Source: Deltaproteobacteria bacterium (GTDB lineage Bacteria; UBA10199; JACPAL01). From it: a stretch of 64,000 nt of DNA. Each line of letters opens with the position of its first letter. Positions within the stretch are counted from its first letter, which is position 1. Where the stretch lies: NCBI GenBank assembly GCA_016180845.1, contig JACPAK010000008.1:1-64000 (forward strand), given 5' to 3'. The notes under the pieces were generated by a model. That model searched no databases, had not been told where the DNA came from, and saw only the letters and a list, made by a program, of their open reading frames with translations. Positions 41,587 to 54,411 of the stretch are shown in pieces. Position numbers and translations under genes: made by a program.

Positions 41587-43206
41587 GTGCCAAAAACACT
41601 ATCCCCTCGCGAAGAACTTCTTAAGATTCAAAAGAGGATTTACGCGAAAAATAACGAATTCATCCGGAGCCAGACCCTGATCCAGGAAAAGGGATTCGAC
41701 ACCTATGAGCGCCGGTATAAAAGATATGTCCAAAATTATGCGAAAATCTCTTCTATTGAAGAGCTGATCGAAGAGGTGATGAAATCCCAGATCATCTATC
41801 TGGGTGACTACCACACCAACAAACAATCTCAGAGGATGCTTCTCCGCCTCTTGAAACTTCTGACCGAAAAAACCCAAAACTTCTCCGTCGGACTCGAACT
41901 CGTCCAGAAAAGAGACCAAAAGATTCTCGATGCCTTCTTGAAAGATCAAATTACCGAAGAGACATTCTTAAAAAAAATACGGTTCCAGAAATATTGGTAT
42001 TTCGATCTCTGGCAAAATTTCAAACCACTCTTCGACTTCGTCCGCTATTGGAAGATCCCTGTCTATGGGATCGAATGGTCGCTGTCAGGAGACAGCTCCC
42101 TTCTCGATCGAGACAAAAAAAATGCGCAGATCATCGCTTCTATTTTGAAAAAAGATCCGACCCGAAAACTGATCGTCTTCATCGGCGATCTTCATATTGC
42201 CCCCCCTCACCTCCCGAACCAGGTTCAAACTCTGTTCACAGGGAAGGAAAAACCAAAAGATCTGATCCTGTATCAAAACAGTGAAGCGATTTACTGGAAA
42301 TTGGCTGAGAGGGAACTCGAAGACAAGACAGAGATCTTGCGGATCGACGAGCGGAGTTTCTGCCTCATCAATACCCCTCCCATCATTGCGCAACAATCTT
42401 ACCTCAACTGGCTCGAGCATGAAGAGGGGCAGATTGATTATATCGATGCAAAACACAACTTTCTCGAACTGCTGCATCAGATCGCCGGCTTCCTGGAAAT
42501 CACACTGGAAAAAAATGCTGACGAAGTCGAGGTTTTTACCTGTGGCGACTTGAGTTTTCTGAAGAGGCTCGAGGAGGATGGCGGCTTTTCAAAACAGGAG
42601 ATCCGACAGATCAAGCGCCAGATCCTCGCCTCGGAGAGCTACTGCATCCCCTCAAAAAAATATGTCTACCTCGCCAATCTTTCCATGAATCATGCCTCGG
42701 AAGAGGCGACACACTACCTGAAGTTCCTCTGTTCCGGGACGGAAGAGCCTCGCTATCTTGTCGATGCCTTCTACGCCAATACCCTCCACGAGGCGCTTGG
42801 ATTTTTCGGCTCCAAGATCATCAATCACAAGAGAAAATGCTTTCATGAAAAGGAATATGAAGAACTCGTCCAATATCTTAAATCAGCCCGAGGAAACCAA
42901 CAGCGACAATTTGAGCTCGAAATGGCGCTTCTGATCCTCGAACATAAAAAACTCGAGAAGAAAAGATTGCCTCTTCGATCCAAAAAATTCTTCAAATCCC
43001 ATCCCGATCTCTTCTTCGCGGTGACGCATGGACTTGGTTATATGTTGGGGGACACCCTTTATTACTCCCTCCTTGAGGGGAAAACCTCCAAAGAAGAACT
43101 CAAGGCGCTCTTCTTTGACCCAATGAAGGAAGATGGAAAACCTTATGAGACCTACATGCGATTGATTCGGAAGCTCCGAGGGGTCAAGATCCCGAAGAGG
43201 GTTTAA
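41587..43206 (+). CDS. ChaN-like (haem-binding uptake domain) protein
   Basis: A 539-residue protein starting with GTG. The N-terminal about 280 residues resemble the ChaN/Tiki-like fold (PF04187): QIIYLGDYHTN at about 76-86, VGLELVQ, and VFIGDLHIAPPHLP. ChaN of Campylobacter binds haem, but that is not general, and the His/Asp pattern here also fits a metal-binding role. The C-terminal half is helical, charged and unfamiliar. No signal peptide is seen. It overlaps the convergent cusA-like gene by 23 bp. Confidence 0.78.
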   Translation: MPKTLSPREELLKIQKRIYAKNNEFIRSQTLIQEKGFDTYERRYKRYVQNYAKISSIEELIEEVMKSQIIYLGDYHTNKQSQRMLLRLLKLLTEKTQNFSVGLELVQKRDQKILDAFLKDQITEETFLKKIRFQKYWYFDLWQNFKPLFDFVRYWKIPVYGIEWSLSGDSSLLDRDKKNAQIIASILKKDPTRKLIVFIGDLHIAPPHLPNQVQTLFTGKEKPKDLILYQNSEAIYWKLAERELEDKTEILRIDERSFCLINTPPIIAQQSYLNWLEHEEGQIDYIDAKHNFLELLHQIAGFLEITLEKNADEVEVFTCGDLSFLKRLEEDGGFSKQEIRQIKRQILASESYCIPSKKYVYLANLSMNHASEEATHYLKFLCSGTEEPRYLVDAFYANTLHEALGFFGSKIINHKRKCFHEKEYEELVQYLKSARGNQQRQFELEMALLILEHKKLEKKRLPLRSKKFFKSHPDLFFAVTHGLGYMLGDTLYYSLLEGKTSKEELKALFFDPMKEDGKPYETYMRLIRKLRGVKIPKRV

Positions 43207-46200
43207 TCTGACGCTTCCACAAATAATAAATCGCCGGATAGACGAGAAGTTCCATTAAAAACGAAGTAAAGAGCCCACCAACCATCGGGGCAGCGATCCG
43301 TTTCATGACATCAGCGCCGGTTCCGGTACTCCACATGATCGGCAAGAGACCGACAAACGCACAGGCGACCGTCATTACCTTGGGACGCACCCGCTTCACC
43401 GCCCCATGCAGGATCGCCTCCTTCAGATCACCATCATGTCTCATGAGCCCTTTCCCCTTCGCCTCGTCATAGGCAAGATCGAGATAGAGCAGCATAAAGA
43501 TCCCGGTCTCCGCATCGAGTCCCAAGAGGGCAATCAGCCCGACCCAAACACCGATCGACATGTTGTATCCAAGGATATAGAGGAGCCAGATCGCCCCGAC
43601 CGCCGAAAACGGGACCGCCAAAAGGACAATGAATGTCTTCGGAATTGACTTCGTGTTCCAATAGAGCAGGAAAAAAACGATCAGCAGCGTCAGTGGCACC
43701 ACAAGCAGGAGTCGTCCCTTGACCCGCTCCATCGCCTCATATTGACCGCTCCAATGGAGAGAGTAACCAACCGGTATTTTCATCCGCTCTTGAACAACCT
43801 TCTTCGCCTCATGCACATAGCTGCCAACATCACGACCCGCCATATCAATAAAGACATACCCTGCGAGCATCCCGTTTTCGTCGCGAATCATCGCAGGGCC
43901 GGTGCGAAACTTCAGATCGGCAATCGAAGAAAGGGGGATCTGTGCGCCGGAAGGGGTTGGTACAAGCACACGTTTCAGATCATCAAGGTCATCACGCAAT
44001 TCACGCGCATAGCGGACATTGACAGGATAGCGTTCTCTCCCCTCGATCGTTCGCGTGATATTTTCGCCGCCGATCGCCGACATGATGATCATCTCGGCGT
44101 TGTCGATCGTGAGGCCGTACCGCCCTAGCTCCTCCCTCTTCAAATCAAAATCGAGGAAATAACCACCAGCAACCCGTTCGGCAAAGACAGACCGGGTCCC
44201 TCGAACCTCCTGCAGGACAATCTCCAACTGCTGTCCTATCTGCTCGATCTCCTTCAGATCCGAGCCAAAGACCTTTACACCGATCGGTGTCCGGATACCG
44301 GTCGAGAGCATGTCGATCCGGTTTTTGATCGGCATCGTCCAGGCATTCGTCCAGCCGGGGAATTTCATTTTTTGATCCATCTCATCAATCAACTCTTCCC
44401 ATGAAATCCGATCCGACCAGATGTGACTCAGGAAATAAGGGACCGGAAATGACAGCCATCGATACCATCGATCTTTTTTACGCCACTCCTTTTCCGGTTT
44501 CAGGATAACAACCGTCTCTGCCATCGAAAACGGCGCCGGATCAGTCGCGGTCTCGGCACGCCCCATCTTGCCGAAGACACGCTCCACCTCGGGAAAGGAG
44601 CGCAAGATTCGATCCTGCTCTTCAAGAATCCGTGATGCCTCCGTCACCGAGATTCCTGGGAACGAAGTCGGCATGTAGAGGATCGCCCCCTCGTTCAGCG
44701 GTGGCATAAACTCAGATCCAAGACGTAAAAAGGGAATGATCGTGATGCCGACAATGACGAGCGCGATCTTGATCACTTTTTTCGGATGGGCCAGCACATA
44801 ATGGATCGCCGGTCCATAAAGCCGAAAGAGAACCTGACTAATCGGGTGTCGTTCCTCGGAGACCATCTTCCCGACAACAATCGAATTAACCAAACGAGTA
44901 AGCTTTGGAGAACGCAATCGAAACTCCTTCAGATGCGTAAAAAGGAGCCGGATCGCCGGATCGAGCGTGATTGCAAGAAACGCAGCGATCCCCATCGCGA
45001 AATTCTTTGTAAAGGCAAGCGGTTTGAAGAGCCGCCCTTCTTGCTCCTCCAGTGTAAAAATCGGCATGAAAGAAACAGCGATCACAAGGAGTGAAAAGAA
45101 ACTGGGACGAGCGACCTCCTGAATCGCGCTCACCAGGATCTTACGATAATCCCCCTTTTTCCCCTCCGCCTCCCATCGCTCCAGTTTTTTGTGGGCGTTC
45201 TCCACAACAACAACCGCCGCATCGACCAGCGCCCCGATCGCCACCGCGATCCCCCCGAGTGACATGATATTCGAGGTCAGCCCCATCGCCTGCATCGGAA
45301 TAAAGGAGAGAATCACCGCGACCGGGATCGTGATAATCGGAATCACGGCGGAAGGGAAATGCCAAAGAAAGATCAGGATTATGAGCGAGACAACGATCAT
45401 CTCCTCCATGAGTGTCTTCTTCAGGGTGCTGATCGAACGTTTGATCAGATCAGACCGATCATAGGTCGTGACGATCTTAACCCCTTCCGGAAGTGAAGGC
45501 TCGATCTCTTGCAGTTTTTCTTTGATACGGTTGATGACACGCAGGGCATTCTCGCCATGTCTCATCACAATAATCCCACCGACCGCATCCCCACGCCCAT
45601 CAAGGTCTGAAACACCGCGTCGAAGCTCCGGCCCCAAAGAAATCTTCGCGACATCCTTTAAAAAGATCGGGACCCCTCTTTTAGAATCATTCCCTACAGA
45701 AATTTTTTCGAGATCAGAGATAGATTTCAGATAACCACGCCCCCGGATCATATATTCCCGGCCGGAAAACTCGACGAGACGCCCACCGACCTCGTTATTC
45801 CCCTCTCGAATCGCACGAATCACCTCATCTAATGGAATCTTGTAGGCCAGCAGGGCATTGGGATCGATATTGACCTGATACTGTTTGACGAAACCACCGA
45901 TACTGGCGACCTCCGAAACACCGGGAACAGACTGAAGGTGAAATTTGAGATTCCAGTCTTGAAGGGTTCGAAGTTCCGAGAGATCCTTCTTCCCCGACTC
46001 GTCAACCAAGGCATATTGAAAAACCCAACCAACCCCCGTGGCATCGGGACCCAGTTCCGTCTTGACCCCTTCAGGGAGGAGTGGCGTGATCTTCGAGAGA
46101 TACTCAAGCGTCCGACTTCTCGCCCAATAGAGATCGGTCCCATCCTCAAAGATCAGATAGACATACGAAAATCCAAAGTCCGAGAAACCACGGATCGCCT

Positions 46201-46435
46201 TGACCTTCGGCGCCCCCAAAAGAGCTGTTACGATCGGATAGGTGACCTGATCCTCAATAATATCGGGCGAACGATCCCATTTCGAATAGACAATCACCTG
46301 TGTGTCGGAGAGATCGGGGATCGCATCGAGCGGGACGTGTCTGATCGACCAGATCCCGAACGCGACCAGGACAAGCGTCAACGCCAGGACCAGAAATCTG
46401 TTTTTCGCTGAAAATTCGACAATCTTTTCAATCAT
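43184..46435 (-). CDS. cusA: Heavy-metal efflux RND pump, CusA-like
   Basis: A 1,083-residue inner-membrane proton antiporter with twelve membrane helices. Family motifs include the start MIEKIVEFSAKNR, DLSDTQVIVYSKW, the TM4 acidic motif VAIGALVDAAVVVVEN, and FMPPLNEGAILYMP, RAETATDPAPFSMAETV, NRIDMLSTGIR. Three Met of E. coli CusA (573, 623, 672) that carry Cu(I)/Ag(I) appear to have counterparts here, by eye alignment. It works with the adaptor and outer-membrane genes upstream. A structured 105-bp gap separates it from the adaptor gene. The Shine-Dalgarno GGGAGATTAGG precedes the ATG. Confidence 0.93.
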   Translation of the reverse strand: MIEKIVEFSAKNRFLVLALTLVLVAFGIWSIRHVPLDAIPDLSDTQVIVYSKWDRSPDIIEDQVTYPIVTALLGAPKVKAIRGFSDFGFSYVYLIFEDGTDLYWARSRTLEYLSKITPLLPEGVKTELGPDATGVGWVFQYALVDESGKKDLSELRTLQDWNLKFHLQSVPGVSEVASIGGFVKQYQVNIDPNALLAYKIPLDEVIRAIREGNNEVGGRLVEFSGREYMIRGRGYLKSISDLEKISVGNDSKRGVPIFLKDVAKISLGPELRRGVSDLDGRGDAVGGIIVMRHGENALRVINRIKEKLQEIEPSLPEGVKIVTTYDRSDLIKRSISTLKKTLMEEMIVVSLIILIFLWHFPSAVIPIITIPVAVILSFIPMQAMGLTSNIMSLGGIAVAIGALVDAAVVVVENAHKKLERWEAEGKKGDYRKILVSAIQEVARPSFFSLLVIAVSFMPIFTLEEQEGRLFKPLAFTKNFAMGIAAFLAITLDPAIRLLFTHLKEFRLRSPKLTRLVNSIVVGKMVSEERHPISQVLFRLYGPAIHYVLAHPKKVIKIALVIVGITIIPFLRLGSEFMPPLNEGAILYMPTSFPGISVTEASRILEEQDRILRSFPEVERVFGKMGRAETATDPAPFSMAETVVILKPEKEWRKKDRWYRWLSFPVPYFLSHIWSDRISWEELIDEMDQKMKFPGWTNAWTMPIKNRIDMLSTGIRTPIGVKVFGSDLKEIEQIGQQLEIVLQEVRGTRSVFAERVAGGYFLDFDLKREELGRYGLTIDNAEMIIMSAIGGENITRTIEGRERYPVNVRYARELRDDLDDLKRVLVPTPSGAQIPLSSIADLKFRTGPAMIRDENGMLAGYVFIDMAGRDVGSYVHEAKKVVQERMKIPVGYSLHWSGQYEAMERVKGRLLLVVPLTLLIVFFLLYWNTKSIPKTFIVLLAVPFSAVGAIWLLYILGYNMSIGVWVGLIALLGLDAETGIFMLLYLDLAYDEAKGKGLMRHDGDLKEAILHGAVKRVRPKVMTVACAFVGLLPIMWSTGTGADVMKRIAAPMVGGLFTSFLMELLVYPAIYYLWKRQIKPSSGS

Positions 46436-46464
46436 CCTAATCTCCCATAACGGTCGGGTCCTGT

Positions 46465-46523
46465 CTTAAGGTTCCGCCCACCCGTGCTCACCCGTTGCGC
46501 GCGGGCGGGCGCCCGACCTTAAG
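46465..46523. repeat. Large imperfect hairpin in the cusB-cusA gap
   Basis: Outer arms CTTAAGGT and ACCTTAAG (8 bp) enclose inner arms GCCCACCCG and CGGGCGGGC (8 of 9 pair), with CG-rich sequence between. In the mRNA it would lie between the adaptor stop and the pump start, where it could limit expression of the pump or shield the upstream message. Confidence 0.6.
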
Positions 46524-46540
46524 CCACCCGCCCGTGTCCA

Positions 46541-47539
46541 CTAATGCCGATGCTCTCTTTCCTTTGTCATGCCCGACACCGCCGCCCGGAGTTGACTCTC
46601 CGAATCGATCAAAAACGCTGCACTGGTCGCAACGATCTCTCCTTCCTGTAACCCTTCCAAGACAACGCGCTCCTTGCCCACCTCCGATCCCAACTTCAGA
46701 TCCCTCGCTTCAAAATGCGTCCCATCATGTACGACAAAGACAAATTGTCGTTCACCGGTATCAATCACTGCCTCTTTCGGAACCACGATCTGAACACCGA
46801 GTGGTACCTCCAAATAAACAGTCAAATAACTCTCAGGCATCACCTTCCCTCCGAGACCGGGGACCTCGATCCGTCCCTGAACCGCACGGGTCATCGGATT
46901 AATAACGGTCTCCTTCCCCCTAAGGACCCCTTCAAACTTCTCACCCGAGGGAAGAACAACTGCCGCCTTCTGTCCGATCTGAATCCCGGAGAGTTCATGT
47001 TCGTAAATCGGCGCATAAACCCAGACGGAACCGCCCGGCTCAGGAACCATAAGCGCCGGATCAGGATCCCCTCTTTTCTCAAGTTGATCGATCTCATCAG
47101 GAACCATCCCCATCAGTTTCAATCGATCGGTCGCCGCTTTTTTGAGAGAAGGAACCCCATTCGCGATCTCCAGATACTCCCTCTGCGCCATCGCGAGATC
47201 TGGGTCGAAGACAACGCGCCCCATCGCCCTGATCTCCTGAACAGCCTCTTTCTTCTCAACACTCGCCGTGGTCAATCCAATCCGTCTCTGCCGATCCTGC
47301 GGGATCATGACCCCCTTCTTTCCTTCTTTTTCCCCGTCCCGATACACCGGTATTAATTTCATCTGACAGATCGGACAATTTCCCGGCTTTTCCTGATGAA
47401 TATGCGGATGCATGGGACAGGTGTAATGACTAATCTCAGCCTCTTCGCGATCGGAATGATGCCACCGGTGGTAAACAAAAAAACCTCCTCCACCCAAGAT
47501 GAGCAGGCCGATTATTGGAAAAATATATTTCTTATTCAT
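46541..47539 (-). CDS. cusB: RND periplasmic adaptor with metal-binding N-domain, CusB-like
   Basis: A 332-residue membrane-fusion protein with an N-terminal membrane anchor (about 6-23), then the heavy-metal-binding segment YTCPMHPHIHQEKPGNCPIC with CxMHP and CPIC pairs typical of copper/silver adaptors. HlyD-like barrel-sandwich and beta-barrel segments follow (GGSVWVYAPIYEHELSGIQ). A very short coiled-coil is expected from its length. It overlaps the exit-duct gene stop as ATGA with the Shine-Dalgarno GGAGGTG. Confidence 0.9.
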   Translation of the reverse strand: MNKKYIFPIIGLLILGGGGFFVYHRWHHSDREEAEISHYTCPMHPHIHQEKPGNCPICQMKLIPVYRDGEKEGKKGVMIPQDRQRRIGLTTASVEKKEAVQEIRAMGRVVFDPDLAMAQREYLEIANGVPSLKKAATDRLKLMGMVPDEIDQLEKRGDPDPALMVPEPGGSVWVYAPIYEHELSGIQIGQKAAVVLPSGEKFEGVLRGKETVINPMTRAVQGRIEVPGLGGKVMPESYLTVYLEVPLGVQIVVPKEAVIDTGERQFVFVVHDGTHFEARDLKLGSEVGKERVVLEGLQEGEIVATSAAFLIDSESQLRAAVSGMTKEREHRH

Positions 47540-48789
47540 AATTCACCTCCCATGAGCCTCTCGAGGCGGGCATATGACTGGCCGAACCTCGCCTCGCTCT
47601 CATAAAAATCATTTTTAAGTTCCAGATAGGTCCGGATCGAATCAACATAGGTCAGGAGATCAACCTTGTTTGCGGCATAGGCGATCTTGGCCGCCTCGAG
47701 ATTCGCCTTCGAGGCGGGCAGGATTGTTCCTCGATATTTCTCCAGAATTTTTTGCCCTGAGGTTACCGCCTGAAAGATCTCCTCAAAATCGTGCACCGTA
47801 TGGATCTCCATCGCCTCGCGTTCAAGCTGCGTTGCCTTTTGCATTGCGCGCGCCTCACGGATCTCGGCACGATTTTTTCTCCAAAACCAGATCGGAAGAT
47901 TAACCATGGCAGTCCCACTCCAGGTGTCCTCTTGCGTCCTCCATTGGTTATAGGAGAATTCGAGGGAAAAATCGGGGAGGAGGTTCAGCCTCGCCTCCGT
48001 CAATTTAGATTTTTCGCGATCCTCCATCGCCTTCAGGGTTTTAAGCTCCGGCCTCTTCTCTTTTGCCAGATCCAAAATTGACTCGCGGTCTAAACCGATA
48101 TGTGGCCAATCGATCTGATGCGGCAGACGGATCGGCTCATGGTGATCCCGATTCAAGAGCGCCCTCAGGTGCGCCTCATGGGTTGTTCGCTCCTGTTCCA
48201 GCCCAATCTCCTGATTCTGGAGTTTTGTGAGTTCCACCTGGGCCTTGAGCGGCGATTCCGCAGAGGTGCGCCCCGCCGCGTAACTCGTCTCTGTCGAGCC
48301 AGCGAGTTGGCGAAGGAGCGATTGGGTCGATCGATTCACTTCAAGCTGGCGATCGACACGGTAGAGTTCGTAGTAGGTCATCTTGAGATCCAGAAGGATA
48401 TCCTGAATCATCCCTTGGGAGGTCCCCTCCTCTTTTTTGAGGTCGAATCGGGCCGCCCGTCCTCTAACAAATCTCTTCCCTGGAAAAGGGATCTCTTGCC
48501 GGACAAGGTAATCGGTCTCCATCGATTGCCCGACATCGATCGTTTTTTTCGGGACATCGTCGAACATCACCCCGATCATCGGGTCTTCGAGGGATTTCGC
48601 GAGTGGGACGCGCGCCTTCGCCGCCTCGACTTTCTGGTGCGCCGCCTGAATCTCCGGGTTTCTTTGGAGTGCTTCTTCGATAAGATCAGAGAGTTGCTCA
48701 ACTTGGGGCGGGTTAGCGGAACCCGAGACAGGACCCACCCCCACGAGTATTACGGATAGTAAAAATGTCTGTTTCCACCGAGAAACCAT
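47536..48789 (-). CDS. Outer-membrane exit duct, TolC/CusC family
   Basis: A 417-residue periplasmic-outer-membrane channel protein: signal peptide (about 1-24), LSDLIEEALQRNPEIQAA, and long alternating coiled-coil helices (for example EVEAAKARVPLAKS and ARLNLLPDFSLEFSY). The ATG at 48789 follows AAGGAG; an upstream in-frame codon adds two residues. It is the first structural gene of the efflux set. Because of weak sequence conservation, the CusC name rests on gene order. Confidence 0.88.
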   Translation of the reverse strand: MVSRWKQTFLLSVILVGVGPVSGSANPPQVEQLSDLIEEALQRNPEIQAAHQKVEAAKARVPLAKSLEDPMIGVMFDDVPKKTIDVGQSMETDYLVRQEIPFPGKRFVRGRAARFDLKKEEGTSQGMIQDILLDLKMTYYELYRVDRQLEVNRSTQSLLRQLAGSTETSYAAGRTSAESPLKAQVELTKLQNQEIGLEQERTTHEAHLRALLNRDHHEPIRLPHQIDWPHIGLDRESILDLAKEKRPELKTLKAMEDREKSKLTEARLNLLPDFSLEFSYNQWRTQEDTWSGTAMVNLPIWFWRKNRAEIREARAMQKATQLEREAMEIHTVHDFEEIFQAVTSGQKILEKYRGTILPASKANLEAAKIAYAANKVDLLTYVDSIRTYLELKNDFYESEARFGQSYARLERLMGGEL

Positions 48790-48851
48790 ACACAAACTCC
48801 TTAACGAGACATGACCTCATGTCTCAAAAAGACCAACGCGTATGGTTTTTC

Positions 48852-49208
48852 TCAGAGGAGAAGGGTTATTTTTTCAGAGACGAGTGTTTTGGGAGGATCT
48901 AAAAGATGGGTCCGACTCAGGCGATAGATCGACCTCGGTTCAACATAAGAGGAAAAGTTAACTGTCAGGGCAACAGGAGAGGCTGAAAACCCCTCTTGTG
49001 TCGAAGAGGGGAGATAAGCTTGAGACTCCATACTGCCACAACAGAGGGTGGAGGCTTCGAAACCGGCCATTTCCGTACAGCACGCATGCACCGACTGATC
49101 AGCCTCTGCAGCGGTACAGACATAAGGACAGACCACCCAGAAGGCTGTCAGGAACGCAAGCAGACTCACGAACCCTCTCCACCCTCGTGTGGCAAGACCT
49201 TGACTCAT
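48852..49208 (-). CDS. Small Cys-rich exported protein at the head of the cus genes
   Basis: A 118-residue protein starting at ATG 49208, with a signal-like hydrophobic stretch (about 9-29, WRGFVSLLAFLTAFWVV) and a Cys-rich mature N-terminus (CPYVC, then HACCTEMAG, then LCCGSMES). Such thiols could bind Cu(I)/Ag(I). No family name comes to mind. It lies 62 bp before the exit-duct gene, under a promoter whose -10 box ends 8 nt before the ATG. A role in metal handling is inferred from position and Cys content. A longer upstream start is possible but would include the promoter. Confidence 0.72.
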   Translation of the reverse strand: MSQGLATRGWRGFVSLLAFLTAFWVVCPYVCTAAEADQSVHACCTEMAGFEASTLCCGSMESQAYLPSSTQEGFSASPVALTVNFSSYVEPRSIYRLSRTHLLDPPKTLVSEKITLLL

Positions 49209-49216
49209 ACGCACGG

Positions 49217-49246
49217 AGTATAACACCTCCTCAGTCTCCTCGTAAA
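49217..49246 (-). promoter_or_regulatory. Promoter of the cus operon, leaderless type
   Basis: On the minus strand: TTTACG, an 18-bp spacer, then TATACT, ending 8 nt before the ATG at 49208. MerR-type metal regulators like long spacers, but no clear inverted repeat is visible in it. Confidence 0.5.
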
Positions 49247-49249
49247 CAT

Positions 49250-49795
49250 TTATTCTTGAGTTAGCCGGGGGGCGATCTTTTTGGCGATCTGGAGGTACTC
49301 TTCCTGGCTGCAAACAACCCCTTTGGGCTTCGACGTGTCTGAAGACGACTTCTGGCAGGTCATTTGAATCGCTTTTGATCCCTTCTTGAGATACAAGGTG
49401 GCCAAACCACCAGTCGCCTCTTTCCCAAAACCGGTTTCTATCCGATACGAAAAAAAGGCTGCATCCCCCACCTTCGGGATAGCGATCTTCTTCCCCTTCT
49501 GCTCATGAGCAACACGGATCTCGTCAAATTCCTTCGGAAGGATCTGCTGGAAACTAATCAAACCTCCCCCCGTTCCTGTAAGAAACAGCTTTTCACAAGA
49601 GCCGTAGCCGGGAGGGCGGAAATAGTCCCACGATCCACCCAAAATGCCTGCCGCCTCCGTCGGTGTCAGGACCGATTCCTCAAGGGATCCTGGGGGACAG
49701 ATATCAACCTCTTCACTGATCTCCTGCGCCGCTCCAAATCGTGGAGACAGCAAGGCTATCGTCAATAAGCTGATCAATAAGAGAGTCTTTTTCAT
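49250..49795 (-). CDS. Periplasmic protein of unknown function (181 aa)
   Basis: Signal peptide MKKTLLLISLLTIALLS...AAQ (about 1-23). The mature part has three Cys and short beta strands (GDAAFFSYRIETGF, LATLYLKKGSKAIQMTCQ), reminiscent of small secreted lipoprotein-like domains that are measured as substrate-binding folds, but I recognise no family. The ATG at 49795 follows GGAGG and lies just after the metalloprotease stop, so it is probably co-transcribed with that gene. It may help export, folding or inhibition of the protease. Confidence 0.78.
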   Translation of the reverse strand: MKKTLLLISLLTIALLSPRFGAAQEISEEVDICPPGSLEESVLTPTEAAGILGGSWDYFRPPGYGSCEKLFLTGTGGGLISFQQILPKEFDEIRVAHEQKGKKIAIPKVGDAAFFSYRIETGFGKEATGGLATLYLKKGSKAIQMTCQKSSSDTSKPKGVVCSQEEYLQIAKKIAPRLTQE

Positions 49796-49798
49796 CAC

Positions 49799-52700
49799 CT
49801 ATCCTCCTGAACCTGGTTCTGTCCGTGTAATCCGGACCCGCGCCTCGTTGCCTGACTCCCCCTCCGACATCCCGAGGACCTCAATCGTGATTCCCCGATT
49901 CGAATCGACGAAAGAGGTACCAGGACTGAGCCTGTAATTTCTCGGCACAAACACATCTGTATCTCCTGTACCACCACTACTCATCACAGAATAGTTAGTC
50001 TTAAGACGTAGATAGACCCCCTCTGCCAGAGGTGTCTGATAACCATCGGACCCATCAAATCCGATCGGCTTCCGATATTCGATAAAGTAGTAGTGCCCCC
50101 CCTCATGAAGCGGGACCTTGACTGTCTTGAGACCATCACCAGAAACCTCTAAGGCCTCTAAGATAAATTCGGTGGCCCCATCACTATCTGAAAGGGCAAT
50201 TTGTTCTGAGCCGATGAAACCAAAGACCTCCTTGTGCCAGGCATGGTGGTGGTAGGAAGTCGATCCCCCCATCGGAGAATAGGTAGTTCCATAGACACTC
50301 GCGCTGCACCCCACATCGAGATAATTATCGATATCAGATCCAAAGGTTCTATCAGGACAGGTCCACGACCCATCATGTTGCAGGTGGCCTATCGTGTGAC
50401 CCATTTCATGGGTAATCGTTCCTAGGAGCTCTCTTGGCGTAGAACCTTCTCTGAAGCCATTGCTAATCCCACTGAAACCGCCAGCCATTCCCGCAATTTC
50501 ATCGATAATGACATCAGCATCGGCATAGTGGACTATTGGATCTGCTATCGTCCGTGCAGCACCCCTAATGGCGGTAATATTACAATTCGAGGCAATTCCT
50601 CCAATAACAGTCATGCAGTAATCTGACATCCGACCAGGGAGAACAAACGGGCCATACGCATTTCCCGTTATTGTCGATTGGCCATAAGAATTCTCTTCCA
50701 GGAAGGCCCGATACGATCGGGGACCGGAAAATACCAGATTGTCAAAATAGGCCGCATCAATGAGATTGCCAGAGGAGTCGTAGCGAGCCTCGGTCGAATC
50801 GGCAAACTGGAGATAGACAACCTTCACATTCCAGGAATCTCGTGGTGGACCACATGCGGGAAGAGGTGTTGTGATTTCCGCCGTCCCCAGTGAGTTGTAA
50901 TCCTGATCGAGGGTCATCACCATATAGCGATTATCAATACCGGGAATGGCATAGTTATCATAACGAGTCCTTGTCGTACCGGTGCCTCCACTCAGACTTG
51001 TTCCAAAATAGATACCGTTCCGATAAAAGGCATAGCGAGTAATCGAACAACTTGAATCGGTCGGAATGCTCCACCCTAAACTCGTTCTCGCACATTCGTG
51101 AATTGTTGCAGTCAAACTGACAGGGGAACAGGATGTTACATTCGAGACCGGAGGTGGGAATTCAGGACAGGGAGGCATTGTGATCGAAAATTCGGCCCTC
51201 CCGATCTCTACATCACCGACCCCCATCATCGTTCTCACACTGACATCATGTCTCCTTCCTGGAGTTGCAAAACGACTTCCAGACGTTTGAGAAGGCATGA
51301 ATATACCATTTAATTCTCCATCCACAAAAATACGAACGCGGCTGATATTACATTCTGCTCCTGTCGGTAGCTGCCATGACATGAAGAGCAACCTGCAAGC
51401 AGCAACGTTAGTGGGATCATAATGCATTGCCATGAGATCAACGACAGGACAGTCACCTGAAACGGTTACCGCACAATTATCGGCATCCAGCGGACAATTA
51501 TCCGTCGTATCCGGTGTCCCATCCCCATCATCGTCTGAATCACAGGGATTCCCTTGCCCATCACCATCTGTATCGGTCTGGTTCTGGCGTGCCAAGTCAG
51601 GACAGGTATCGGTCTCATCGGGGAACCCATCCCGATCCCGATCGGAAGGCGTTGGCTCACAGAGATCCCCGATCGAGTCTCCGTCACTATTAGCCTGATC
51701 GGGATTGGCGACCAACGGACAGTTGTCGGTTATATCCGTAACACTGTCATTATCATCGTCAGTGTCACAGGCATCCCCTTCGGTATCGCCATCGGTATTC
51801 ACCTGATCCGAGTTGAAGAGCAGTGGGCAATTGTCTTCGGCATCGACCCGAAAGTCATTGTCATCATCGAGGTCGCAGAGATCTCCGGCCCCATCGCCGT
51901 CGTTATTCCTCTGATCCGGATTGGCGAGCAGAGGACAGTTGTCTGATGTATCAGGCAACCCATCTCTATCTTCATCATGATTACAGGGGTCACCGAACGA
52001 ATCCTGAGCCGTGCGATCGGAGCAGTCGGAATGATTGCAACGATCACCAACCGAATCCATAGTTGAGAGATCCGCACAATCCGTGTGGTTGCATGAGTTA
52101 CCGGTTGAATCCTGAGGAGTCCGGTCAGAACAGTCAGTGTGGTTACAGGGATCCCCAATCATGTCTTGGAGCGACAGGTCTGCACAATCGTTGTGATTAC
52201 AAACATCCCCAACCGCATCTCGGAGAGACCGATCGGGACAATCGTCATGGTTACATGGATCGCCAATGGAGTCTTCCAGAGATCGATCGGCACAATCATT
52301 ATGAATACAGGCATCTCCAACCTCGTCTCGAGGGGTCCGGTCAGAACAGTCGGTGTGGTTACAAGGATCACCTACTGAATCCTCTGTAGAAAGATCCGCG
52401 CAGTCGTTATGAACGCAAGCATCCCCGACAGCATCTCGAGCTGATCGATCGGCGCAATCATCGTGATTGCATGGATCTCCAATCGAGTCTTCCAGAGATC
52501 GATCGGCACAATCATTATGAATACAAGCATCCCCAACATCATCTCGAGTAGACCGATCAACACAATCGTTGTGGTTACAGGGATCACCAATGGAATCATC
52601 AGGATCAGTGGGACAGGAGTCAACAACATCCTCTCTCTCGTCGTTGTCGTCATTGGTATCACAGGGATTCCCTTGACTATCCCCATCGGTGTCGGTTTGG

Positions 52701-54289
52701 TCTGTCGATTCCAGAAGAGGGCAATTGTCCGTAGCATCCGCAATACCATCATCATCATCATCAGAATCATCTTCCCGACAGACCCTGCTCCCTCGACTAT
52801 CAATCACACCGATCTCCCTTGGAGCCAGCCGGGGTTCGCAATCAGTGATATCAGAAGTCCCGTCGTTGTCATCATCGTCATCATCAGGGACGCAGGAAGA
52901 GCGCCCTACATCCCCTAAAAAGATACTCACCTCTATTTCACCTTGCGCATCGAGGGGCAAACAGTCAGAGGTGTCCAAAGTTCCATCATTGTCATCATCC
53001 TCGTCATCCACAACACAGGAGGAACCCCCACTCTCATTGGTGATCACCATCTCCCCCTCTTGACTGAGCGGATTACAATCCGAACTATCCGGTGTCCCAT
53101 CCCCATCATCATCGGTATCTCGATTATTCCCTATCCGATCATGATCGGTATCTACAGACTCCCGCGCATCCAAGGGAAAGGCGTCTGCAGTATCAACAAC
53201 CCCGTCATTATCATCATCCGTATCGGCATTATCCCCTCGACGATCGCGGTCGTTGTCCCGCGACTCCCTCGGATCAAGTGGGAAAATGTCTTCCGTGTCA
53301 GGACTTCCATCCCCATCATCATCGGTGTCGGCTTGATTCCCGATACCATCGCCATCGGTATCTACAGACTCTCGACTGTCTCGTGGGAACGGGTCACTGG
53401 CATCCGCCACACCGTCGTTGTCATCATCGTCATCGTCGACCAGACAAGAAGATCCCCCTCTGCGATCAATGATATTGATCTCTCCGGAGGCGCTTCGGGG
53501 AAAGCAGTCAGAGGCATCAGGCGTCCCGTCATTGTCATCATCCATATCGGCATTATTGCCTGACCCGTCGCTATCGGTATCGAGACTCTCTCGCCCATCC
53601 CGCGGGAAGGCATCCCTCGTATCCGCCACTCGATCATCATCATCATCGTCATCATCAACCACACAGGCGGGCATACCAGATCGGTTGTTCACACCAATCT
53701 CACCCAAAGCGCTTAGTGGAGAACAATCCGATCCATCCGGTGTTCCATCGTTATCATCATCGTCATCATCCACAACACAGCGACGCCGTCTGGAGGCATC
53801 GGTTATCTGTATCTCCCCAAAGGCATTCCGGGGATTACAATCCAGCGCATCCGGAGTGTCATCATCATCATCGTCACTATCGTCTACGGTACATCGACGG
53901 GAACCGGTTTCGTCTGTCATAAAAATCGCTACCCGCGCATCGCGAGGGGCACAATCACCCCGGTCAATCGCACCATCGTCGTCATCATCGTCATCGTCGA
54001 TGACACAAGATGAACCAGCGGATGGATTGACAATGACAACCTCACCATCGGCACTGAGGGGAGAGCAATCATTTCGATCAAGGGTTCCATCGTTATCATC
54101 ATCGTTATCACAGGCATCTCCACGCCGATCCCCATCGGTGTCTGTTTGGTCATTATTGCGAACCGTAGGGCAGTTGTCCCGGAAATCGGCGATCTGATCC
54201 CGATCCTGGTCAGACTCAAGATTCTGTGAATAAAGGGGAAAGGCAAAGAGGAGTAAAAAAGAGAGGGCAAGAAGCTGACTCAGTCGCAT
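49799..54289 (-). CDS. Giant secreted M11-like metalloprotease with Ca-binding repeats (1,496 aa)
   Basis: The start is placed at ATG 54289, after the sigma-54-like element, giving the signal peptide MRLSQLLALSFLLLFAFPLYSQ. Residues about 25-1000 are thrombospondin-type-3-like Asp-rich loops that bind Ca2+ in the family. Eleven copies of an 18-residue Cys/His/Asp unit are embedded (568-765). Two Fn3-like domains follow. The protease domain (about 1160-1430) has HEMGHTIGHLQHDG from 1294 and a Met-turn YSPMGG, closest to the gametolysin family (M11). The third zinc His is one residue later than in classical metzincins. It is followed by the gene for a small periplasmic protein. Confidence 0.85.
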   Translation of the reverse strand: MRLSQLLALSFLLLFAFPLYSQNLESDQDRDQIADFRDNCPTVRNNDQTDTDGDRRGDACDNDDDNDGTLDRNDCSPLSADGEVVIVNPSAGSSCVIDDDDDDDDGAIDRGDCAPRDARVAIFMTDETGSRRCTVDDSDDDDDDTPDALDCNPRNAFGEIQITDASRRRRCVVDDDDDDNDGTPDGSDCSPLSALGEIGVNNRSGMPACVVDDDDDDDDRVADTRDAFPRDGRESLDTDSDGSGNNADMDDDNDGTPDASDCFPRSASGEINIIDRRGGSSCLVDDDDDDNDGVADASDPFPRDSRESVDTDGDGIGNQADTDDDGDGSPDTEDIFPLDPRESRDNDRDRRGDNADTDDDNDGVVDTADAFPLDARESVDTDHDRIGNNRDTDDDGDGTPDSSDCNPLSQEGEMVITNESGGSSCVVDDEDDDNDGTLDTSDCLPLDAQGEIEVSIFLGDVGRSSCVPDDDDDDNDGTSDITDCEPRLAPREIGVIDSRGSRVCREDDSDDDDDGIADATDNCPLLESTDQTDTDGDSQGNPCDTNDDNDEREDVVDSCPTDPDDSIGDPCNHNDCVDRSTRDDVGDACIHNDCADRSLEDSIGDPCNHDDCADRSARDAVGDACVHNDCADLSTEDSVGDPCNHTDCSDRTPRDEVGDACIHNDCADRSLEDSIGDPCNHDDCPDRSLRDAVGDVCNHNDCADLSLQDMIGDPCNHTDCSDRTPQDSTGNSCNHTDCADLSTMDSVGDRCNHSDCSDRTAQDSFGDPCNHDEDRDGLPDTSDNCPLLANPDQRNNDGDGAGDLCDLDDDNDFRVDAEDNCPLLFNSDQVNTDGDTEGDACDTDDDNDSVTDITDNCPLVANPDQANSDGDSIGDLCEPTPSDRDRDGFPDETDTCPDLARQNQTDTDGDGQGNPCDSDDDGDGTPDTTDNCPLDADNCAVTVSGDCPVVDLMAMHYDPTNVAACRLLFMSWQLPTGAECNISRVRIFVDGELNGIFMPSQTSGSRFATPGRRHDVSVRTMMGVGDVEIGRAEFSITMPPCPEFPPPVSNVTSCSPVSLTATIHECARTSLGWSIPTDSSCSITRYAFYRNGIYFGTSLSGGTGTTRTRYDNYAIPGIDNRYMVMTLDQDYNSLGTAEITTPLPACGPPRDSWNVKVVYLQFADSTEARYDSSGNLIDAAYFDNLVFSGPRSYRAFLEENSYGQSTITGNAYGPFVLPGRMSDYCMTVIGGIASNCNITAIRGAARTIADPIVHYADADVIIDEIAGMAGGFSGISNGFREGSTPRELLGTITHEMGHTIGHLQHDGSWTCPDRTFGSDIDNYLDVGCSASVYGTTYSPMGGSTSYHHHAWHKEVFGFIGSEQIALSDSDGATEFILEALEVSGDGLKTVKVPLHEGGHYYFIEYRKPIGFDGSDGYQTPLAEGVYLRLKTNYSVMSSGGTGDTDVFVPRNYRLSPGTSFVDSNRGITIEVLGMSEGESGNEARVRITRTEPGSGG
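51995..52588 (-). repeat. Eleven tandem 54-bp repeats (18-residue Cys/His/Asp unit)
   Basis: Within the metalloprotease gene, eleven 54-bp units encode the consensus GDxCNHxDCxDRSxxDxI, each exactly 18 residues, and a partial twelfth (GDPCNHDED) follows. Cys4, His6, Asp8, Cys9, Asp11 and Asp16 are almost invariant. Units alternate in two flavours (for example GDAC and GDPC types), suggesting growth by duplication of pairs. Confidence 0.9.
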
Positions 54290-54306
54290 AGTCATATCAG
54301 GTAGAA

Positions 54307-54321
54307 GCAACTTACGTGCCA
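54307..54321 (-). promoter_or_regulatory. Consensus sigma-54 promoter of the giant metalloprotease
   Basis: On the minus strand: TGGCACG, four bases, TTGC, followed by T, a full match to the sigma-54 consensus. The GC ends 17 nt before the ATG at 54289 and 11 nt before an in-frame ATG at 54295. An upstream GTG start would place the promoter inside the gene. An inverted repeat TGATAA/TTATCA at 54412-54427, about 120 bp upstream, could be an activator site. Confidence 0.78.
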
Positions 54322-54411
54322 CAGATCGACTCAGATCACCAGAAAAAATCTTTGTAATTTGGCTAGTTACCTTTTTGGACCTGCTGACGTGGAGTCAAAA
54401 TATTCTCAAAG

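Follow-up and report, generated by a model that had tools for sequence, protein, structure and literature searches.

The thrombospondin type-3 (TSP3) repeat (PF02412; structures 1UX6, 1YO8 and 3FBY, and the bacterial 5WTL) is the closest described counterpart of the repeat reported here, with which it shares a GDxC anchor, alternating DNC- and GDxC-type cysteines and a tandem layout. Five aspartates have been modelled as ligands of the TSP3 calcium site (D171, D173, D175, D179 and D182), and the TSP-1 disulfide C856-C876 is a pair of a DNC-type and a GDxC-type cysteine (PMC6526912), while a paper on a bacterial TSP3 structure states in its title that Ca2+ binding depends on an intra-repeat disulfide (Dai 2017, cited in PMC12045341). 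The myxobacterial TraA Cys-rich stalk and TraB TSP3 linker are likewise Cys-rich or TSP3 surface repeats, described as a presentation stalk or a calcium-binding linker at the cell surface (PMC12045341); they are built of a different repeat and are likened to ours by description. The C-rich domain of teneurins, which are YD-repeat proteins like several of the proteins discussed below, combines two TSP3-like calcium sites with one LDL-A-like site (PMC9058538). For the enzymatic part, the points of comparison are the M6 metalloproteases (TIGR03296) and the myxosortase-dependent metalloprotease (NF041905), which have the HExxHxxGxxH motif and Met-turn in common with the C-terminal domain of our protein.

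The locus lies in the window, by which we mean the whole 64,000-nucleotide stretch of DNA that was analyzed, and has the following parts:

49799..54322, (-) strand: whole gene, coding for a 1507-aa secreted protein (ORF listing and translation)
52733..54067, (-) strand: N-terminal region with a second TSP3-like variant (from the translation, with a partial listing of the pattern)
52589..52672, (-) strand: 28-aa TSP3-type unit GNPCDTNDDNDEREDVVDSCPTDPDDSI, directly upstream of the array (segmentation at GDxC and cysteine bookkeeping)
51995..52588, (-) strand: eleven 18-aa units GDxCxHxDCxDxSxxDxx, aa 579-776 (unit table, TRF and shuffle control)
51554..51994, (-) strand: canonical TSP3 repeats of 36-39 aa, directly downstream of the array (structure-database matches and segmentation)
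49802..51373, (-) strand: C-terminal 524 aa, metzincin-like, with the motif HEMGHTIGHLQHD and the Met-turn YSPMGG (NCBIfam and motif)

From the N- to the C-terminus, the protein consists of a hydrophobic signal-like segment (judged by eye), a TSP3-rich half, the 18-mer array, canonical TSP3 repeats, linker domains and the protease-like domain (from the ORF listing and Pfam). Pfam TSP_3 matches it in 12 stretches (E=2.8e-25), and the units flanking the array pass the PF02412 cut-off (88.2 bits against 25). The N-terminal region displays about eight copies of a second variant with long Asp runs, CxPxxxxGEIxIxxxxGxxSCVVDDDDDDNDGxxD, interspersed with Cys-free units of the form DAFPLDxRESxDTDGDGxGxxxDxDDDNDG. 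The TSP3 stretch that follows the array begins with GDPCNHDEDRDGLPD, which has CNH in common with the 18-mer, and is matched by thrombospondin-2 (2RHP, E=3.7e-45) and by the bacterial OmpA-family structure 5WTL (E=3e-5). Directly downstream of the gene on the same strand (43184-49798, by eye) are a small secreted-protein ORF, whose start is within a few bases of the protease-gene stop, a short Cys-rich ORF and then TolC-, CusB- and CusA-like genes, the last two 2-3 kb further on; the protease gene and these heavy-metal efflux genes possibly form one transcript. A search of the 64-kb window for RNA families and tRNAs found none.

The earlier note had placed the repeat inside a metalloprotease, and both the HExxHxxGxxH motif and the Met-turn are indeed present in the host protein. 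Its match to the M6 domain TIGR03296 of NCBIfam (E=2.5e-8, 34.1 bits) is under the curated cut-off of 110.8, as is its score against NF041905 under the cut-off of that family, and, unlike the M6 families, it bears a long TSP3-type stalk. A relative in G001, a genome of the same family, is 35-39% identical and keeps the catalytic and Met-turn residues and ordinary TSP3 repeats without the array, which means that the array was gained in the lineage of the window or lost in G001. The window's own genome encodes another relative of the protease domain, 29% identical (G000:C1:472644-473441, (-) strand).

The array proper consists of eleven 54-bp units in frame within ORF 49799-54322, which TRF detects at periods of 54, 108 and 216 bp (scores 244, 445 and 601). 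All eleven units have Gly1, Cys4, His6, Asp8, Cys9, Asp11 and Asp16, and ten of them carry Asp at position 2, where the remaining one has Asn; the pattern G[DN]xCxHxDCxD has 11 matches in the real protein against none in each of 1000 residue shuffles. The earlier claims of near-invariant Cys, His and Asp, and of the extent, period and copy number of the repeat, are thus borne out, but the description of it as "exact" is not: units are on average identical at 57-71% of their DNA positions, according to the lag (about 65% overall), and units 2 and 6, whose proteins are identical, are alone in being near-identical in DNA (94%). With unit DNA identities of 56-94%, an artifact of exact repeats or assembly collapse is unlikely, and an origin by frame-shift was dropped on finding stops or nothing recognizable in the other two forward frames and the reverse frames. 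Across the 76 units that we gathered, Cys4, Asp8, Cys9 and Asp16 are conserved in 100%, Gly1 and Asp11 in 97% and His6 in 95%, the cysteine values being partly by construction, as the units were gathered by their cysteines.

Neither Pfam nor NCBIfam has a model for the array, and TSP_3 touches only its downstream edge below threshold: the array alone scores 18.4 bits against the PF02412 cut-off of 25, at residues 195-216 of 216. It has no solved relative, the 18-mer profile being without a match in the PDB, and we found no literature on such an 18-residue unit, a motif that is not searchable as text. The structure prediction suggested in the earlier note gave no reliable fold: AlphaFold2 reached a pLDDT of 37.5 for the 262-aa array, while of the five models of a four-unit piece the best had 78.1 and the others 40-55, and Foldseek with the four-unit model returned no match in PDB or BFVD. 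The view that the repeat resembles the standard TSP3 loop without being one nevertheless holds up, as true TSP3 units flank an array that itself falls under the TSP_3 cut-off. Compared with TSP3, the unit has 18 rather than 36 residues, no DxDxDG loop, a near-invariant His6 and a rigid Cys-x4-Cys. When the array proteins are cut at GDxC, the pieces are mainly 18, 28 and 36 residues long and in phase, as in GDPCNHDEDRDGLPDTSDNCPLLANPDQRNNDGDGA (36), GDPCNHDEDGDGISDGADACPFIPNDLI (28) and GDPCNHDDCADRSARDAV (18), and most arrays are located in phase between real TSP3 units. The 18-mer is therefore best read as a putative TSP3 unit in which two stretches are missing, namely the DxDxDG loop that separates the two cysteines in TSP3 and the greater part of the loop leading up to the following GDxC. 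A held-out profile made from the 18-mers of other loci scores 28-aa TSP3 units above shuffles in six of six cases (z 2.0-4.9, p<=0.043) and two of four of the window's 36-39-aa units, in a test that is anchored on GDxC and in which simple Asp/Cys composition inflates similarity. Together with the phase continuity, these scores support descent from TSP3, short of proof.

The cysteines are rigidly spaced: Cys9 lies 5 positions after Cys4 in 79 of 80 cases, and the Cys4 of the following unit lies 13 positions after Cys9 in 78 of 79. Each of the 11 arrays is preceded, 12 or 13 positions before its first Cys4, by a DNC-type (Cys9-type) cysteine in an upstream half unit that is TSP3-type or an identical "C-x11/12-C"; in the window, it is GNPCDTNDDNDEREDVVDSCPTDPDDSI that provides this cysteine, 12 positions ahead of the first GDxC cysteine. 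All ten complete arrays terminate on a GDxC-type (Cys4-type) cysteine. With a Cys9-type cysteine ahead of every array and a Cys4-type cysteine closing every complete one, the most likely arrangement is one TSP3-like disulfide per unit that crosses the unit boundary (Cys9-Cys4'): such pairing orphans no cysteine, whereas pairing within units would orphan both ends. The disulfide linkage supposed in the earlier note fits this bookkeeping.

Looking for the pattern in other proteins, as the earlier note had proposed, we found the 18-mer in five of the 46 genomes of the window's phylum and, outside it, in a single genome of the Anaerolineae. When 84,980 species genomes were scanned with profile-derived patterns, which demanded near-consensus residues and may miss diverged arrays, three loci emerged: one in a MAG designated "Deltaproteobacteria", one in a MAG that bears the label Bdellovibrio and one in an Anaerolineae MAG. 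The first two are in genomes of the window's class. Within the class of the Anaerolineae match, that genome alone has arrays among 298, and a profile search of two further phyla (40 and 132 genomes, run without a positive control) found none. A mobile or phage origin was discarded, there being no match among plasmids, phages or IMG/VR. Uninterrupted arrays range from 2 to 12 units, and their other hosts in the phylum are unrelated secreted proteins: two RHS/YD proteins, two small YD proteins and one alpha/beta-hydrolase with a lipase match. The small YD proteins, which join a signal-like segment and one or two YD repeats to a long 18-mer array, each have their gene immediately after an RHS gene of the same orientation (L046:1705-10567 and L042:2411-12758), in what looks like a two-gene RHS cassette. 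The Anaerolineae array (L048:9815-10171) is in a short, membrane-anchored-looking ORF on a contig that ends inside it; its units are near-identical, the first of them, GDPCVDDCPDGSGKDGQ, lacks the His, and it may reflect convergence, transfer or a binning error.

Taking these observations together, we propose, with a probability of about 0.6 and on the strength of sequence comparison, that the array is a shortened TSP3 repeat multiplied in tandem into a disulfide-stapled, acidic and probably calcium-binding stalk. A TSP3 unit would first have shrunk from 36 to 28 residues through loss of a portion of the loop preceding GDxC and then, in an order of steps that we infer, from 28 to 18 through loss of the DxDxDG loop that separates the cysteines, retaining the GDxC anchor (Cys4), the second cysteine (Cys9) and a short stretch of 13 positions from there to the next Cys4. 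The shortened unit would then have multiplied in tandem, each copy being closed by a Cys9-Cys4' disulfide as the counterpart of the DNC-to-GDxC disulfide of TSP3. The kept ligands Asp2 and Asp16, with Asp8, Asp11 and Ser/Thr13, would probably hold Ca2+ in each unit, and the stapled links would form a stiff extracellular stalk that keeps the N-terminal calcium-repeat region at a distance from the C-terminal protease domain. As the 18-mer occurs in RHS/YD, lipase-like and protease proteins, it is likely to be a stalk module rather than part of an enzyme. The array is no new system or mechanism but a TSP3-type repeat unmodelled in Pfam and NCBIfam; family libraries, it seems, miss shortened units even inside a well-known repeat. 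If our reading is right, the array would show how far TSP3 can be trimmed, with most of both calcium loops lost and the cysteine ladder kept in a unit that is halved, multiplied and reused, and the 18-mer, easily made as a peptide, would offer a simple test of structural versus calcium residues in TSP3. It would also be, to our knowledge, among the shortest disulfide-stapled stalk units known.

How such a unit might bind metal is the point at which other readings enter. Two TSP3 ligands are kept, D175 at position 16 (76/76) and D179 at position 2 (57/76); of the other ligand positions, 12 and 14 are non-acidic and 5 is Asn in 44 of 76 units. Because three of the five canonical ligands are absent, calcium binding would not be simply transferable from TSP3, and Asp8, Asp11 and Ser/Thr13, which are new relative to TSP3 and strongly conserved, could be a rebuilt site. 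The near-invariant His6 is also new, and a disulfide stalk alone leaves it unexplained. On a rather doubtful reading that would give it a role, the 18-mer would have arisen from TSP3 within a single uncultured phylum and would now form a class of extracellular mini-repeats in its own right. His6, Asp8 and Asp11 would then serve a metal chemistry peculiar to this class, either Ca2+ held in a novel geometry or a transition metal at a site of mixed Cys and His ligands, and the unit would move between RHS-type surface proteins and secreted enzymes as a prefabricated stalk.

That CxHxDC (Cys4, His6, Asp8 and Cys9) holds Zn, Cu or a similar metal, the array then being an extracellular metal buffer or store, would account for the near-invariance of these residues over 76 units and for the efflux-like genes seen by eye downstream on the same strand. 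We consider it unlikely: no metal genes were recognized beside the other arrays, the cysteine bookkeeping suits Cys9-Cys4' pairing instead, the proteins look like secreted ones, whose cysteines are as a rule oxidized, and no zinc-finger family in Pfam passes its cut-off in the array, zf-MIZ reaching 12.2 bits against 33.5.

The DCxDGS segment found in 29 of the 76 units recalls the motif of the LDL-A module, so that DCxDGSxxD could be a Ca2+ site in its own right, reached by convergence, with the TSP3 likeness due to Asp/Cys composition. The presence of an acidic motif of this kind beside cysteines, the mixture of both site types in the teneurin C-rich domain (PMC9058538) and the arrays in YD-repeat proteins speak for this quite improbable origin, but the 18-mer has two cysteines at a spacing of 5, not six, and an 18-residue tandem periodicity, its profile has no PDB match, Pfam finds no LDL-A (PF00057) in the array at E<=10, and the in-phase continuity with TSP3 units favors descent. 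TSP3 by descent and LDL-A-like in chemistry can both hold.

As to the age of the array, odd units resemble odd (0.69) and even units even (0.67) more than odd resemble even (0.62; permutation p=0.003), so the two-unit periodicity of the earlier note stands, but the recent growth read from it has little to support it. Units 1-4 and 5-8 differ with a dN of 0.12 and a dS of 1.57, against a dS of 0.30 between units 2 and 6 (rough values, by NG86 over short stretches), and both synonymous codons are in use at the invariant Cys, His and Asp positions. On these grounds, most of the array appears to be of considerable age and to be maintained by purifying selection. Younger exchange is limited to one event at most, and no pair other than units 2 and 6 looks more recently related. 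The same purifying selection and synonymous change, and the recurrence of the invariant residues in unrelated proteins of two phyla, make it very unlikely that the array is a low-complexity linker, flexible and without a fold or metal of its own, whose units recombination keeps alike, as the poor AlphaFold2 confidence and the similarity of units at lags 2 and 4 might have suggested.

TSP3-type repeats are also found in very long open frames, one of 9,627 codons in the window's genome (G000:C3, near 204967-205206) and one of 12,096 codons in a genome of the same order (G004:C37, near 135964).
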